Source: Hyphomicrobiales bacterium (GTDB lineage Bacteria > Pseudomonadota > Alphaproteobacteria > Rhizobiales > HXMU1428-3). From it: DNA of 32,747 bases. This document shows positions 4,351 to 30,637 of this stretch, one piece after another. The notes below the pieces were generated by a model, which did no database searches, was not told where the DNA came from, and saw only the letters and a list, made by a program, of their open reading frames with translations. The position numbers and the translations under genes were made by a program. Numbering within the stretch: position 1 is the stretch's first letter; the number at the start of each line of letters is the position of its first letter. The DNA lies in contig JAEPQF010000032.1 in NCBI GenBank assembly GCA_017640685.1, forward strand, positions 1 through 32,747, given 5' to 3'.

Positions 4351-4361
4351 ATGAATGTACA

Positions 4362-4472
4362 GCGCGGATGCAAAGTGGGAATCCTAAAGCGCAACAAAAA
4401 AGCGCGGATGTTATGTGGGCATCTGAAGCGCAGACAAAAAAGCGCGGATGTTATGTGGGCATCCTAAAGCGC
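4362..4472 (+). repeat. Tandem array of three R1 hairpins (type B), 40-bp period
   Basis: Copies lie at 4362-4392, 4402-4431 and 4442-4472, exactly 40 bp apart. Each has GCGC, GGATG, a loop ending GTGGG, (C/A)ATC(C), YTRAA and GCGC. The first two copies are followed by CAACAAAAAA or CAGACAAAAAA. Read on the minus strand, copies two and three are GC-rich hairpins immediately followed by TTTTTT, which is the form of an intrinsic terminator. The array fills the gap between parC and its terminator. Confidence 0.85.
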
Positions 4473-4476
4473 AGTT

Positions 4477-4513
4477 AAAAAAGCACTTTCATGAAAAATG
4501 AGAGTGCTTTTTT
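4477..4513. terminator. Bidirectional Rho-independent terminator after parC
   Basis: AAAAAAGCACTTTCA pairs with TGAGAGTGCTTTTTT around a short loop. A-runs and T-runs on opposite sides allow it to work in both directions. It closes the parC unit and is the first terminator met by minus-strand transcripts coming from bpt. Confidence 0.88.
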
Positions 4514-11566: not shown

Positions 11567-11587
11567 AAAAAGGTTCTTTCAGGTTGT

Positions 11588-11861
11588 GGGCTCAGGACCC
11601 ATTAATTTCATGGTTTCTGTTGCACAAAAGCAGTTAAGATACTAGAAAAACAAGAGCAAGCGGGAGTTCCTTCCCGTTAAGCTTGTTTTTTGCTGTAGAT
11701 GGACTGCTTTTGTGCAACCCTTTAAAGGGCGCGGCTCTTTTTTGCATCTGTTTGCCAAACCCGTTTGACCATAGCTTAGGCTATGCTCTGAACGGGTTTC
11801 ACAAACAGTCATCAAAAAATAGACACGCGCAGAAACCGTGAAATTAACGGGTCCTGAGCCC
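11588..11861. mobile_element. MITE-like palindromic element (274 bp) with 32-bp terminal inverted repeats
   Basis: The ends 11588-11619 and 11830-11861 are inverted repeats (GGGCTCAGGACCC, ATTAATTTCA, TGGTTTCTG) with only two mismatches. Inside are two further arms. One pairs TTGCACAAAAGCAGT (11620-11634) perfectly with ACTGCTTTTGTGCAA (11703-11717). The other spans 11729-11830 and pairs TTTTTTG, CTGTTTG, AAACCCGTT and ATAGC with their complements. Between the arms is the palindrome CCCTTTAAAGGG (11718-11729). Almost the whole element can fold as a three-way junction. It encodes no protein, and I see no clear target-site duplication. It fills the divergent gap between the extensin-like and HIBCH-like genes. 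Confidence 0.7.
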
Positions 11862-11945
11862 AGGCTCTTCATGTATAGCTCAACGAGCAAAAACTTCAAA
11901 CGAGTTGAGATAATGATGCACAATATAGATGCGGAGCAAACAGTC

Positions 11946-13022: not shown

Positions 13023-13197
13023 ATGAGCGCTTATTTTTAAAATTAAACGGCATTTAGCGCTAATTTTGTTACATTTTTAGATAAATACGAAAAAATTTAA
13101 CGTAAAATTAAGGGCGTTTTTTAAACGGATTTTAGTGTCTTATCGGTATGTTAGCTACTGTCACTACAGGGTAGGCGTAACAACAAATGAGGCAGAA

Positions 13198-13707
13198 ATG
13201 ACTTATGCCCAAAATAAGCCGGAATTAGAGACCTCAGAAGTGGATGGAAAGCTGAAAGGCGAGTACATGTCATCTCTGAGAATGATTGAACGACTGCACC
13301 GTCTCCTTCTTGATGTTGTCAAGGATGAGTTTGAGCGGAATGGTTGTTCAGAAATTAATAGCATCCAGGCTTTGCTTTTATACAATATCGGTGAAAGCGA
13401 GCTATCGGCCGGAGAACTACGTTCTCGTGGATATTATCTTGGATCTAACGTTTCTTATAATCTTAAGAAACTTGTTGATATGGGATACATCCATCATGAA
13501 CGCTCAGACACAGATCGCCGTTCGGTACGGGTGAAATTAACTGATAAGGGACAGGAAGTCTGCGACATCATTAATGGTTTGTATGGGCGTCAGCTCAATG
13601 CACTAGAAAAGGTGGCTGGGATTTCTGAAGGAAACCTCTCTGAGGTAAACAAGTCTCTTTTACAACTAGAACGTTATTGGACGGATCAAATCAGGTTCCG
13701 TTTGTAA
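13198..13707 (+). CDS. ldtR: MarR-family transcriptional regulator LdtR
   Basis: 169 aa. Winged-helix regulator: dimerisation helices around SLRMIERLHRLLLDVVKDEFERNG, recognition region LSAGELRSRGYYLGSNVSYNLKKLVDMGYI, wing ERSDTDRRSVRVKLTDKG, and a C-terminal helix. The long form and this motif set match LdtR of Liberibacter and rhizobia, which controls an L,D-transpeptidase gene (ldtP) and stress or motility traits. Here an L,D-transpeptidase gene lies downstream, supporting the name. An in-frame GTG exists at 13135, but the ATG at 13198 has GAGG at good spacing. The upstream gap (13023-13197) holds AGCGCT-centred palindromes that could be operators. Confidence 0.88.
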   Translation: MTYAQNKPELETSEVDGKLKGEYMSSLRMIERLHRLLLDVVKDEFERNGCSEINSIQALLLYNIGESELSAGELRSRGYYLGSNVSYNLKKLVDMGYIHHERSDTDRRSVRVKLTDKGQEVCDIINGLYGRQLNALEKVAGISEGNLSEVNKSLLQLERYWTDQIRFRL

Positions 13708-13784: not shown

Positions 13785-13865
13785 GCTTAATTGTTGTCTG
13801 GGACTTCATATTTCACACCCAAAACCGCCCCTTCAACTGTATAAAATATCCCTATGATGATTTAC

Positions 13866-14284
13866 GAAGAAGGAGCTCAGCCCTTTTTTGTCCTTCAGTT
13901 GCCCACTAGCAACCGGATCAGGGCAGTAGGACATGGCGAACGTCAGTGAAGCCCGGCGCTTAGCGCCGCACAGTGCGGTTGCTGGTGGGCAACCTAAAGC
14001 GCACAGACAAAAAAAAAGCGCGGTTGCTTCTTGCGGATGCCTGGTGGGCATCTGAAGCAAAGCAAAGGCAACCTGAAGCACGTCTAAAAAGTAGGCCCGA
14101 GCATAGCGAGGAATAGCTGTGAGAGTAACTAAAGAAGGAGTGGCACCGTTTAGGTGCCAGGACATGGCGCAGCGCCAGCGTAGCCCGGGGCAAGCCCCGC
14201 CCCTCGGAGGCTCACCGCGACAGCGGTGAAATAGCCGTGAGAGAAAATAACAGAGCGAAGCGAGGAAGAGCCGTGAGAGAAAAA
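13866..14284 (+). repeat. Composite mosaic of hairpin repeats between ldtR and ldtP (copy 1)
   Basis: A 420-bp block made almost wholly of short inverted repeats and containing no credible gene. It holds: an R1 copy in reverse orientation (13892-13915); R1 at 13973-14004; R1 type A at 14018-14079 with a type B copy nested in its loop (14033-14058); GGCGC/GCGCC hairpins at about 13954 and 14166; GGCACC/GGTGCC (14142-14158); GGGGC/GCCCC (14187-14198); TCACCGC/GCGGTGA (14212-14229). It shares modules with the mosaic near 23116-23430: GAAGAAGGAG, AGGACATG, CCGCCCCTCGGAGG, GAGCGAAGCGAG and the CCGTGAGAGAAAA tail. The 155-codon minus-strand frame across it is translated repeat. Confidence 0.8.
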
Positions 14285-14760: not shown

Positions 14761-16095
14761 ATGCTTGGACATTTAAAAAGAATGCAACAGACAAATAAAC
14801 TGAAAAACCAAAACGCTCAATTCACAAAAATGAAGCGTTCAGCTCTTAAATTAGCAGCTATCGCAGCCATTTCTTCAACAATGGCCGTCTCAGTAAGCTC
14901 TGGTGCCAATGCCTATGATAGTTGGTTTGGCGGTAATGAAGATAGTGTCGATTGGAATCAAACTTTTGACAGATCTGCGGCCAGAGAATGGGAGATGAAC
15001 CCACCGAAAGGGTTCCCAACGCTTGATAAAGGTAATCTCCCTTTAATGAAAGAAGCGGTAAAACGTTATGCAGCTATTGTCTCTGCTGGTGGCTGGCGTC
15101 AAATACCCAAAGGAAAGATGGGGCCTGGCTATAGCGGTCCAAACGTCGCTTTGCTCCGTAAACGCTTGGAGTTAACAGGCGACCTGCAAAAGAATTCAAG
15201 CTATTACAAAAACTATGATTATTATGTAGAGCGGGCTGTTAAACGCTTCCAAGTGCGCCATGGGCTCACACCTATGGGCATCGTTGACAGAAGAACTCTA
15301 CGCGCTTTGAACGTTCCAGCAAAAGTTCGTTTGCGTCAAATCCGTACAAATATAGCCCGCCTAAATGCACTTACACGGAATGCGGCAAAACGCTATGTTT
15401 CAGTTAACGTGCCTGCGCAACAAATTGAAGTTGTTGAAAATGGTCGCATTGTATCTCGCCACGCGGCTGTTGTAGGTAAAGTTGACCGTCAAACACCTCG
15501 CCTTCGCAGTAAGATTCACGAAATTAACTTCAATCCTTTCTGGCATGTACCGCAAAGCATTGTTAGAAAAGACCTTGTCCCCAAAGCAAGAGCTGAAGCA
15601 AAACGCGGTCGCTATGATCTTTTAGAGCGTTTCAAAATTTCTGCAATTGATGGGTCTGGTCGTAAGGTAGACCCAAGAAAAATCAATTGGAATTCAAATT
15701 CTGTATATAATTACCGCTACCGCCAAGACCCTTGGAAAGATAATTCAATGGGATTTGTGAAAATTAATTTTCACAACAAACACGCGGTTTACATGCATGA
15801 TACACCCTCAAAAAGCTTATTTGGTCGTAATTTGCGAGCCCATAGCTCAGGCTGTATCCGTGTACAAAATGTAAAACAATTGGTTGCATGGCTCTTGAAA
15901 GACAATAAAGACTGGAGCAGAAGCCGTGTAGATCAAATGCAAACAAACGGTGAGCGCAAAGATGTGCGCTTAAAAACAAGAGCACCAGTTTATTTTATCT
16001 ATGTAACATCATGGGCAACAAGAGACGGAACAGTTCATTTCCGCCGCGATCTTTATAAGCAAGATGGTGTCGGTGCGACAGCCGCCAATTATTAG
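14761..16095 (+). CDS. ldtP: L,D-transpeptidase (YkuD family), LdtP
   Basis: 444 aa exported enzyme that forms 3-3 peptidoglycan cross-links or anchors proteins to the wall. A basic N-terminal stretch is followed by a signal peptide from about Met24 (MKRSALKLAAIAAISSTMAV, cleavage near ANA). A peptidoglycan-binding domain lies at about 125-185 (NVALLRKRLELTG to VDRRTLRALNVP). The YkuD catalytic domain lies at about 211-372, with His346 in YMHDTPSK and Cys365 in RAHSSGCIRVQN as the catalytic residues. The first in-frame ATG is used, but ATGs at 14785 and 14830 are alternatives. The last puts the signal peptide at the very N terminus and may be the real start. The neighbouring ldtR supports the LdtP name. 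A strong terminator follows. Confidence 0.92.
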   Translation: MLGHLKRMQQTNKLKNQNAQFTKMKRSALKLAAIAAISSTMAVSVSSGANAYDSWFGGNEDSVDWNQTFDRSAAREWEMNPPKGFPTLDKGNLPLMKEAVKRYAAIVSAGGWRQIPKGKMGPGYSGPNVALLRKRLELTGDLQKNSSYYKNYDYYVERAVKRFQVRHGLTPMGIVDRRTLRALNVPAKVRLRQIRTNIARLNALTRNAAKRYVSVNVPAQQIEVVENGRIVSRHAAVVGKVDRQTPRLRSKIHEINFNPFWHVPQSIVRKDLVPKARAEAKRGRYDLLERFKISAIDGSGRKVDPRKINWNSNSVYNYRYRQDPWKDNSMGFVKINFHNKHAVYMHDTPSKSLFGRNLRAHSSGCIRVQNVKQLVAWLLKDNKDWSRSRVDQMQTNGERKDVRLKTRAPVYFIYVTSWATRDGTVHFRRDLYKQDGVGATAANY

Positions 16096-23062: not shown

Positions 23063-23115
23063 GATCTTCGTATTTCAAAATGTAGAGCATCGAGAAAAAC
23101 AATAGTGTACGATAC

Positions 23116-23430
23116 GAAGAAGGAGTGATGCCTAGATGGTTGTGTAATGGGCAACTGAAGTCTTATAAAGGCATCAGGACATGACGCAGCGCCAGCACAG
23201 TTGCATAGTGTGTAACCTAAAGTGCAAATAACCAGCGCGGTTACATAGTGGGTAACCTAAAGCGCAACTAAAATGTAGTCCGGCGCACAAGATCAGCCCG
23301 AACGGAGCGAAGCGAGTACGGATAAGCTGATCGCAAGAAAACCGCCGCCCCTCGGAGGGCCAGCTGCTTTAAGCACGGATGCTGGTGGGCATCTGAAGTG
23401 CTACTAAAGAGCCTAGCCCGTGAGAGAAAA
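23116..23430 (+). repeat. Composite mosaic of hairpin repeats between nusB and thiL (copy 2)
   Basis: 315 bp of repeat modules filling most of the nusB-thiL gap, with no credible gene. It starts GAAGAAGGAG, then GATGCC (23127) pairs with GGCATC (23170-23175) around a nested R1 type A copy (23138-23160). AGGACATG follows, with R1 copies at 23195-23225 (outer stem GCAC/GTGC), 23235-23265 (GGTTAC/GTAACC) and 23373-23401 (GCAC/GTGC, type B). CCGCCCCTCGGAGG (23345-23358) is identical to 14197-14210, GAGCGAAGCGAG (23305-23316) is shared, and the end CCCGTGAGAGAAAA (23417-23430) is shared with copy 1. The shared module order argues for a mobile or duplicated unit. Confidence 0.8.
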
Positions 23431-28868: not shown

Positions 28869-29040
28869 GCGACGGTTGTCATTGCGGTTGCTAGTGGGCA
28901 ACCGAAGCATAGATATGCGGATGTTTTATGGGCATCAGAAGCTAGTAATCGCAACCTGAAGGAGCACTCGCGACGGTTGCTTGTGAGCAACCTGAAGGAG
29001 CACTAACGCGACGGTTGCTTGTGGGCAACTGAAGGAGCAC
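28869..29040 (+). repeat. Cluster of five R1 hairpins, two nested in the loop of a third
   Basis: The outer type A copy (28869-28967) has a loop that holds a complete type A (28884-28908) and a complete type B copy (28917-28942). It is followed by two near-identical tandem copies at 28969-29003 and 29007-29040 (CGCGACGGTTGCTTGTG, then GGCAAC and GAAGGAGCAC). The variant 3' end GAAGGAGCAC, in place of GAAGCGC, occurs only here. The cluster fills the prpE-SDR gap. Confidence 0.8.
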
Positions 29041-29062
29041 TTAAAAGAGCTTAGGATTTTTC

Positions 29063-30416: not shown

Positions 30417-30637
30417 GCGCCGTTGCTATTACAGATGCCTAGTGGGCATCAGAAGTACAAAAAAAGTAACCTAAAGCGCATCAAAAGCGCGGTTTCTGGT
30501 GGGCAACTGAAGCATAACTAAAATGTAGGTCTATGAGCTTCAGCAGCGCGGTTGCTTGTGGGCAACCTGAAGCGCAACTAAAAAGTAATAGCCGTGAGAG
30601 TGTAATTAAGCGGATGCTTTGTGGGCATCTTAAGCGT
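30417..30637 (+). repeat. Mosaic of R1 hairpins after the GNAT gene (copy 3)
   Basis: An outer type A copy (30417-30479) has a type B copy nested in its loop (30434-30455). Copies follow at 30487-30513 and 30546-30575 (perfect GCGC/GCGC and GGTTGC/GCAACC), and a type B copy lies at about 30608-30636 just past the trcR stop. The linkers repeat AACTAAAA(T/A)GTA (30514 and 30576) and GCCGTGAGAG (30591-30600), both also found in the mosaics near 14080-14284 and 23266-23430. Confidence 0.8.

Follow-up and report, generated by a model that had tools for sequence, protein, structure and literature searches.

Several described systems resemble the repeat reported here. The REP, BIME and REPIN sequences associated with TnpA-REP (RAYT) are likewise palindromes that lie between genes in high copy number, with a foot of the GTAG type. 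Small hairpin repeats of bacteria are for the most part short or symmetric, which makes the strand they use and the route by which they spread hard to read. Hairpins and a link to the lagging strand also mark the insertion sequences IS200/IS605, which make no target duplication, and group II introns combine a structured RNA with lagging-strand orientation. In mitochondria, dispersed hairpin repeats include the RHE of sponges and the double-hairpin elements of Allomyces, in which nesting in loops is known. Published accounts report, in outline, that the REP tandem arrays of P. fluorescens run in opposite directions on either side of its genome and that REPINs are related to IS608-like transposition (PMC3116915), that GTAG and CGTC REPs are present in rhizobia (PMC3733652), that IS200/IS605 enter the lagging-strand template (PMC6006769), and that Allomyces double-hairpin elements lack flanking duplications, both DNA and RNA routes having been proposed for mitochondrial hairpin elements (PMC2800124).

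The element studied here, unit B, was read in a window of 32,747 nucleotides, one contig (C156) of a draft 3.5-Mb genome in 230 contigs (the host genome, G000). Unlike REP and BIME sequences, it is about 121 nt long, has several conserved helices, is oriented copy by copy with replication and has loops that receive insertions; its own genome yielded no Y1 gene. In contrast to the mitochondrial elements, it lies in a bacterial chromosome, has a larger conserved fold and is oriented by replication strand. It differs from IS200/IS605 in that no tnpA was found with it and that the strand which seems to fold is the other one: the minus strand of B is on the lagging-strand template, with mixed evidence on which strand folds. 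Unlike group II introns, it has no Rfam match, and reverse transcriptase was not found in six of the eight genomes of the genus. The open-licence literature, represented mostly by titles and the first lines of abstracts, contained no account that we recognised of these elements or of hairpins following replication copy by copy. With its large asymmetric fold, near-absolute replication orientation, nesting in loops and relatives with different fillings, B makes directly testable both the spread of repeats through single strands at forks and the need for a transposase in that spread.

Unit B in the window and beyond

An earlier note on this DNA had described a large mosaic at 13866-14284 that shared ordered modules with a second one at 23116-23430. 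All words quoted there were found, each at most one or two bases from the position given: GAAGAAGGAG at 13866 and 23116, with a one-mismatch variant at 14131; AGGACATG at 13928, 14159 and 23176; CCGCCCCTCGGAGG at 14197 and 23345; GAGCGAAGCGAG at 14253 and 23305; and CGTGAGAGAAAA tails near 14235, 14271 and 23418. The two mosaics are made of copies of a single element, unit B, which explains why they share the order of their modules. This order stands, whereas by eye the two occurrences of GAGCGAAGCGAG belong to different parts: at 14253 it forms the last hairpin of a 3′ fragment of B, and at 23305 it lies inside a smaller hairpin, unit C. The palindromes noticed between the shared words are nested copies of unit C and of another small hairpin, unit A.

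From its 5′ end, B consists of ACGAAGAAGGAG, hairpin P1, GGACATG, hairpins P2 and P3, C(A/C)CCTCG(T/G)A, GGC, hairpin P5, AATAGCC and GTGAGAGAAA. Its compact form was aligned with MAFFT from 29 copies, 20 of the host genome and 9 of named relatives, over 132 columns; a thirtieth copy of 96 nt without P3 (L041:7799-7894) was left out. AAGGAG and GACATG were invariant, as was most of the 3′ tail GTGAGAGA; the hairpin arms were variable. The covariance model, R1, has 121 positions and 29 pairs. Terminal inverted repeats as in a MITE are absent, the 5′ GAAGAAGGAG and 3′ GTGAGAGAAA not being inverse complements. A protein-coding B, suggested by AAGGAG and the ATG that follows P1, was rejected by eye, many copies having an early stop after the ATG or a frameshift in P3. 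For an autonomous, gene-carrying form, also rejected, a pattern scan of the fetched loci other than L041 to L186 gave one split candidate, the window copy, of 337 nt.

The first mosaic keeps its repeat content, but by eye it reads as a swollen B, a compact B and a 3′ fragment rather than as a single mosaic. All three are on the plus strand. Copy 1 (13864-14129, extent by eye; R1 match 13864-14011, 58.7 bits) is swollen by nested A hairpins. One A unit stands inverted, on the minus strand, in the loop of P1 (13884-13919; inverted repeats I3, I4, I6 and I8), and plus-strand A hairpins, one nested in another, occupy the CUC mini-loop (13972-14090; families D1, D3, D5 and D6) between CAC and GTAGG. 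Copy 2 is compact, with 118 nt (14129-14246; 121.5 bits over model positions 1-121), and has fold z-scores of −3.4 on the plus and −2.4 on the minus strand. The last hairpin and tail of a third copy follow at about 14247-14284, of which family D7 covers 14266-14283, the rest being assigned by eye. The neighbours of this mosaic are genes for an LdtR-like MarR regulator (13135-13707) and an L,D-transpeptidase-like protein (14761-16095).

The second mosaic is a plus-strand B copy between nusB and thiL (23114-23429; the 5′ part, 23114-23231, matches R1 at 38.7 bits), enlarged by one C and four A units, all on the plus strand. These are an A in the P1 loop (23133-23168, D4), a tandem pair of A in the P2 region (23193-23273, D2), a C in the P3 loop (23288-23339, the stretch around 23275-23430 matching at least six of eight genomes at up to 99%) and an A in the P5 loop (23376-23409, D1). 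The copy measures 316 nt, as against 117 nt for the syntenic copy of the congener G004; in another congener, G002, the nusB-thiL site holds one decayed and one compact B copy.

Unit A reads GCGC-GGTTGC-loop-GGCAACC-TAAA-GCGC, with variants, and a window-wide repeat search also placed it at about 1985-2033, 4360-4480, 28885-29045 and 30434-30636. The stretch 28885-29045 (plus strand) is a cluster of A alone, identified by this search and by synteny; the cluster is present in G002 and G004 and missing from the corresponding site of G001, G003, G005 and G007. At 30434-30636 (plus strand; D1 and D7, by eye), A units accompany a B 3′ fragment with an A in its P5 loop.

The mosaic sequence is repeated far above chance. 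A genome-wide search, which the earlier note had proposed, gave at least 76 matches in the host genome with the 419-nt region (E ≤ 0.001, from the best 40 of 276 candidates) and at least 143 with R1 (from the best 150 of 739 candidates, a few swollen copies yielding two matches each). The pattern GAAGAAGGAG-N12..42-AGGACATG occurred 27 times, its reversed form not at all. Thus the two mosaics are not the only copies; more than 100 matches share one conserved fold.

R1 was positive in 21 of 61 genomes: the host genome, all seven congeners and 13 of the 53 that represent other families of the order. Among these 13, ten or more matches were obtained only in G018, G032 and G033; the others had one to three, which may be chance. 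Copies outside the genus were read in G032, where L264, L265 and L266 form a diverged B-like family with P4 as CGC/GCG instead of CUC/GAG. B copies also occur in Methyloligella sp. DHS20C07 (BQJJ01000001.1, BQJJ01000014.1) and in the metagenome-assembled genomes OFTM213 (Hyphomicrobiales) and OFTM222 (Hyphomicrobiaceae). An 18-base pattern found at least 116 stretches in public sequences, at least 11 of them true-looking by eye (L041, L049, L058, L062, L075, L092, L100, L132, L141, L149 and L151) and the remainder coding or chance. Plasmid and phage records gave no match to one B copy at E ≤ 1e-5. Within the genus, R1 found 48 matches in G005 as against at least 150 in G002. Three contigs of G002 end at B copies (C3:1-118, C6:202044-202155 and C9:66970-67093); B may break assemblies, so that draft copy counts would be too low.

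A conserved fold and its strand

To evaluate the fold of B, 150 matches (149 distinct) were aligned to the model, chosen as the best among 198 from 92 sources. Pairing was possible in 96.4% of cells, as compared to 73.9% in shuffled and 30-43% in slid alignments. Two-sided changes were observed at 27 of the 29 pairs, against 19.6 in shuffles, and covariation reached 0.555 against 0.160 in the control. None of 500 shuffles attained the value of B for pairing, changed pairs or covariation, figures that lean towards the structure to which the 150 rows were fitted. RNAalifold, run on the MAFFT alignment of 29 copies, reproduced the main helices; of its 31 pairs, 21 were compensated. The fold of B is strongly conserved, with covarying helices.

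A further pairing proposed by RNAalifold towards the 3′ end of B was refined by the copies of G032 to positions 76-78 with 116-118. Over 87 aligned rows, pair 77-117 was UA in 72 and GC in 7, all 7 from G032, and pair 74-80 was CG in 44, AU in 22 and GC in 5. A mini-hairpin whose CUC loop pairs with the downstream GAG, a probable pseudoknot, would explain both pairings. In the controls for the five pairs of P4, 137 of 500 shuffles reached the number of changed pairs and 359 of 500 the number of pair types.

On the plus strand, G-T outnumbered A-C in the stems of B by 103:37 when the first, misregistered pair of P5 was dropped and by 107:72 with that pair, an excess biased the same way by the scoring of G-U as paired in the R1 alignment. 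A symmetric mismatch count gave G-T:A-C ratios of 11:3 in P1, 8:1 in P5 and 2:2 in P3; the rows counted are related, so that p-values are not literal. The ratio was reversed in the outer stems of unit A (19:45, register uncertain) and in unit C (1:5). Four B copies folded alone had the better z-score on the minus strand in three cases. The evidence is mixed and argues moderately for the plus strand of B as the one that folds.

Orientation of B along the chromosome

Among the matches listed, 334 of 344 R1 matches in three congeners (about 97%) were on the majority strand of their contig: 147 of 150 in G002, 45 of 48 in G005 and 142 of 146 in G004, drawn in each genome from at most the best 150 candidates. 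The strand was compared with skew, taken as G-C and T-A at fourfold codon sites for the genes of each strand separately, which avoids circularity. In every sampled copy-bearing contig stretch of these three genomes, mean T-A skew was negative where plus copies prevail and positive where minus copies prevail. G-C skew was mostly concordant, and near zero on several G002 contigs. Overall, 224 of 232 copies on skew-scored contigs fitted the predicted strand, and a recount on fetched stretches gave 101 in agreement and 6 in disagreement. In the host genome, 110 of 112 copies agreed within contigs of two or more copies, with 81 expected at random.

Leading strands are G-rich. Because rpoB and gyrB motifs were found on the G/T-rich strand of contig C3 of G004, opposite B, we read the plus strand of B as lagging-strand sequence. 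Genes were also considered. For 121 copies with two flanking ORFs, 46 pointed with both genes, 23 against both, 44 were between convergent and 8 between divergent ORFs, B thus running against both genes at 23 of 69 tandem sites. The orientation of B tracks replication, not genes or transcription; the 46:23 ratio leaves room for some transcriptional preference. The smaller units obey the same rule in G002 and G005, with 85:2 and 10:1 for A and 5:0 and 4:0 for C.

Eight of the ten minority-strand copies begin at a distance of 164-358 bp from a majority copy, the two 5′ ends in every case facing each other. The two without such a partner lie in G005 (C2, 635234) and G004 (C3, 43156), and a further solitary one in G002 (L200:11385). 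An orientation switch inside contig C3 of G004 was rejected since skew was positive in 8 of 8 stretches, so that the plus copy at 43156 is a true exception. Seven head-to-head pairs were fully read (L007, L190, L206, L244, L003, L041 and L149). In six, one partner carries a P1 variant (GGGAG or GGAAG, then TGCTC or CGAGC), and the spacer of three contains TTATGAATTCA. Partners are no closer to each other than copies in general (likeness 0.55-0.75, against a mean of 0.71 among all 14 copies). These pairs possibly represent a separate dimeric form or subfamily.

Nested insertions and routes of spread

The loops of B contain hairpins of the smaller families A and C. In the 150-row alignment, all 35 insertions of at least 20 nt fell in apical loops, a count that leans on the model alignment and covers copies other than the strongly swollen ones with split or partial matches. 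They followed position 24 in the P1 loop (12), 49 in the P2 loop (1), 66 in the P3 loop (10) and 96 in the P5 loop (12). Those listed were mostly A or C, with at least one other hairpin. Nine copies, apart from the junction at 13972-14090, have A between P3 and (G)TAGG; several read exactly CAC-A-GTAGG, which places A in the CUC mini-loop.

Syntenic sites carry different fillings. At one (L193:4766, L244:4614, L245:4929), where the left flank could be aligned up to the element in three genomes, B is compact in G002 and G004, and in G000 the same B holds a C in its P3 loop, an A inside that C and an A in the mini-loop. Insertion in G000 would be the simpler reading, as against loss elsewhere. 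At another site, the P1 loop of B contains an A in G002 but not in the syntenic copy of G004; the other stems differ too, and conversion is possible. At the site of the first mosaic, B is lacking from G001, G002, G006 and G007; G003 has a decayed copy there and G004 a remnant. Among the syntenic sites compared, neither a clean target duplication nor a precise empty B site at high identity was found. To judge from their sequences, these comparisons support mobility of B. The composite element with its own architecture proposed in the earlier note is borne out by more than 100 matches, the conserved fold, the nested insertions and the differences in filling between syntenic sites; copy number, nesting and filled versus unfilled sites likewise favour its suggestion of a non-autonomous mobile unit.

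We consider it rather probable that B is a non-autonomous mobile hairpin family spreading via single-stranded DNA at replication forks, a reading in which we infer both the enzyme and the route. The plus strand would fold into P1, P2, P3, a probable CUC mini-hairpin pairing with GAG, a terminal variable P5 and a 3′ AATA bulge. New copies would arise at forks, either directly as single-stranded DNA or by copying of it, and this would leave the plus strand with the sequence of the nascent lagging strand; were the plus strand the one that travels, it would come in as nascent lagging strand, unlike IS200/IS605. The loops of copies folded on exposed single strands would offer entry points for A and C. 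The enzymatic part may come from host replication and repair functions alone. The 3′ tails are A-rich (51% in B and 54% in A, as compared to 29% overall; the 20 nt before B have 44%), and searches for Y1 transposase and reverse transcriptase in the eight genus genomes identified no mobilising gene for B: within the limits of draft assemblies, neither is common to all B-carrying genomes of the genus. Together with replication orientation and nesting in loops, these features fit single-strand entry at forks. Selection could instead keep the orientation. We would put forward only tentatively a transposase-free mobile DNA, in which nascent lagging single strands, protected by their hairpins, re-enter at forks and preferably in hairpin loops. 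Re-entry would be by annealing, as with recombineering oligonucleotides, and would produce replication-locked, nested populations.

It appears unlikely that B is instead a REP-like element that a Y1 transposase (RAYT or IS200/IS605), now lost, unbinned or confined to other strains, mobilised in trans. Such an enzyme would suit the GGAG at the 5′ foot of P1 and the G(T/G)AG at that of P5 in most copies, as well as the mostly intergenic position of B, with 4 of 125 copies inside ORFs of at least 100 aa and 8 of 121 between divergent ORFs. Use of hairpins and of the lagging-strand template by Y1 enzymes (PMC6006769) and recognition of GTAG (PMC8266576) are reported in outline. However, Y1 transposase (PF01797) was found in one of the eight genus genomes and not in the host draft genome or six other congeners. 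Its two genes, both RAYT-like and in G004 (C1; L250, 3449-8200), lie beside many ATTACGGTGACAGT repeats, which are a different repeat system, and among the matches listed no R1 match on that contig is nearer than 132 kb from its start. In addition, the plus strand, if it folds, is not on the lagging-strand template. The label BIME-like used earlier holds for location and repetition, but the host genome yielded no REP-associated Y1 transposase.

A structured RNA or SINE-like retroelement with A-rich 3′ tails, spread by reverse transcription, seems quite unlikely. The RNA-like covariation and probable pseudoknot pairing, the tails with 51-54% A and the 46:23 excess of copies pointing with both tandem genes would agree with it, and reverse transcriptase genes occur in the host genome (L269, G000:C178:10472-11074) and in G005 (L270, G005:C2:542686-543117), one in each. 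None was found in the other six, including the B-rich G002 and G004. Rfam gave no family match for the window at gathering thresholds, and at E ≤ 5 on L015, L100 and L264 its four weak matches all lay outside B copies; ribozymes of the HDV, hammerhead and twister types were considered and dropped. Orientation, moreover, follows replication, not transcription. The structured RNA considered in the earlier note thus keeps its conserved, covarying fold, against which stand this orientation and the lack of an Rfam match. A signal of chromosome polarity, comparable to KOPS or a primase site and kept in a single orientation by selection, would account for a strand agreement of about 97%, above known transposon biases, but is very improbable for copies that are nested within one another, decay and vary among relatives, with 48 matches in G005 against at least 150 in G002.

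Elsewhere in the window, at 11587-11862, two 33-nt inverted repeats that are 94% complementary lie 210 nt apart and possibly delimit a separate MITE.
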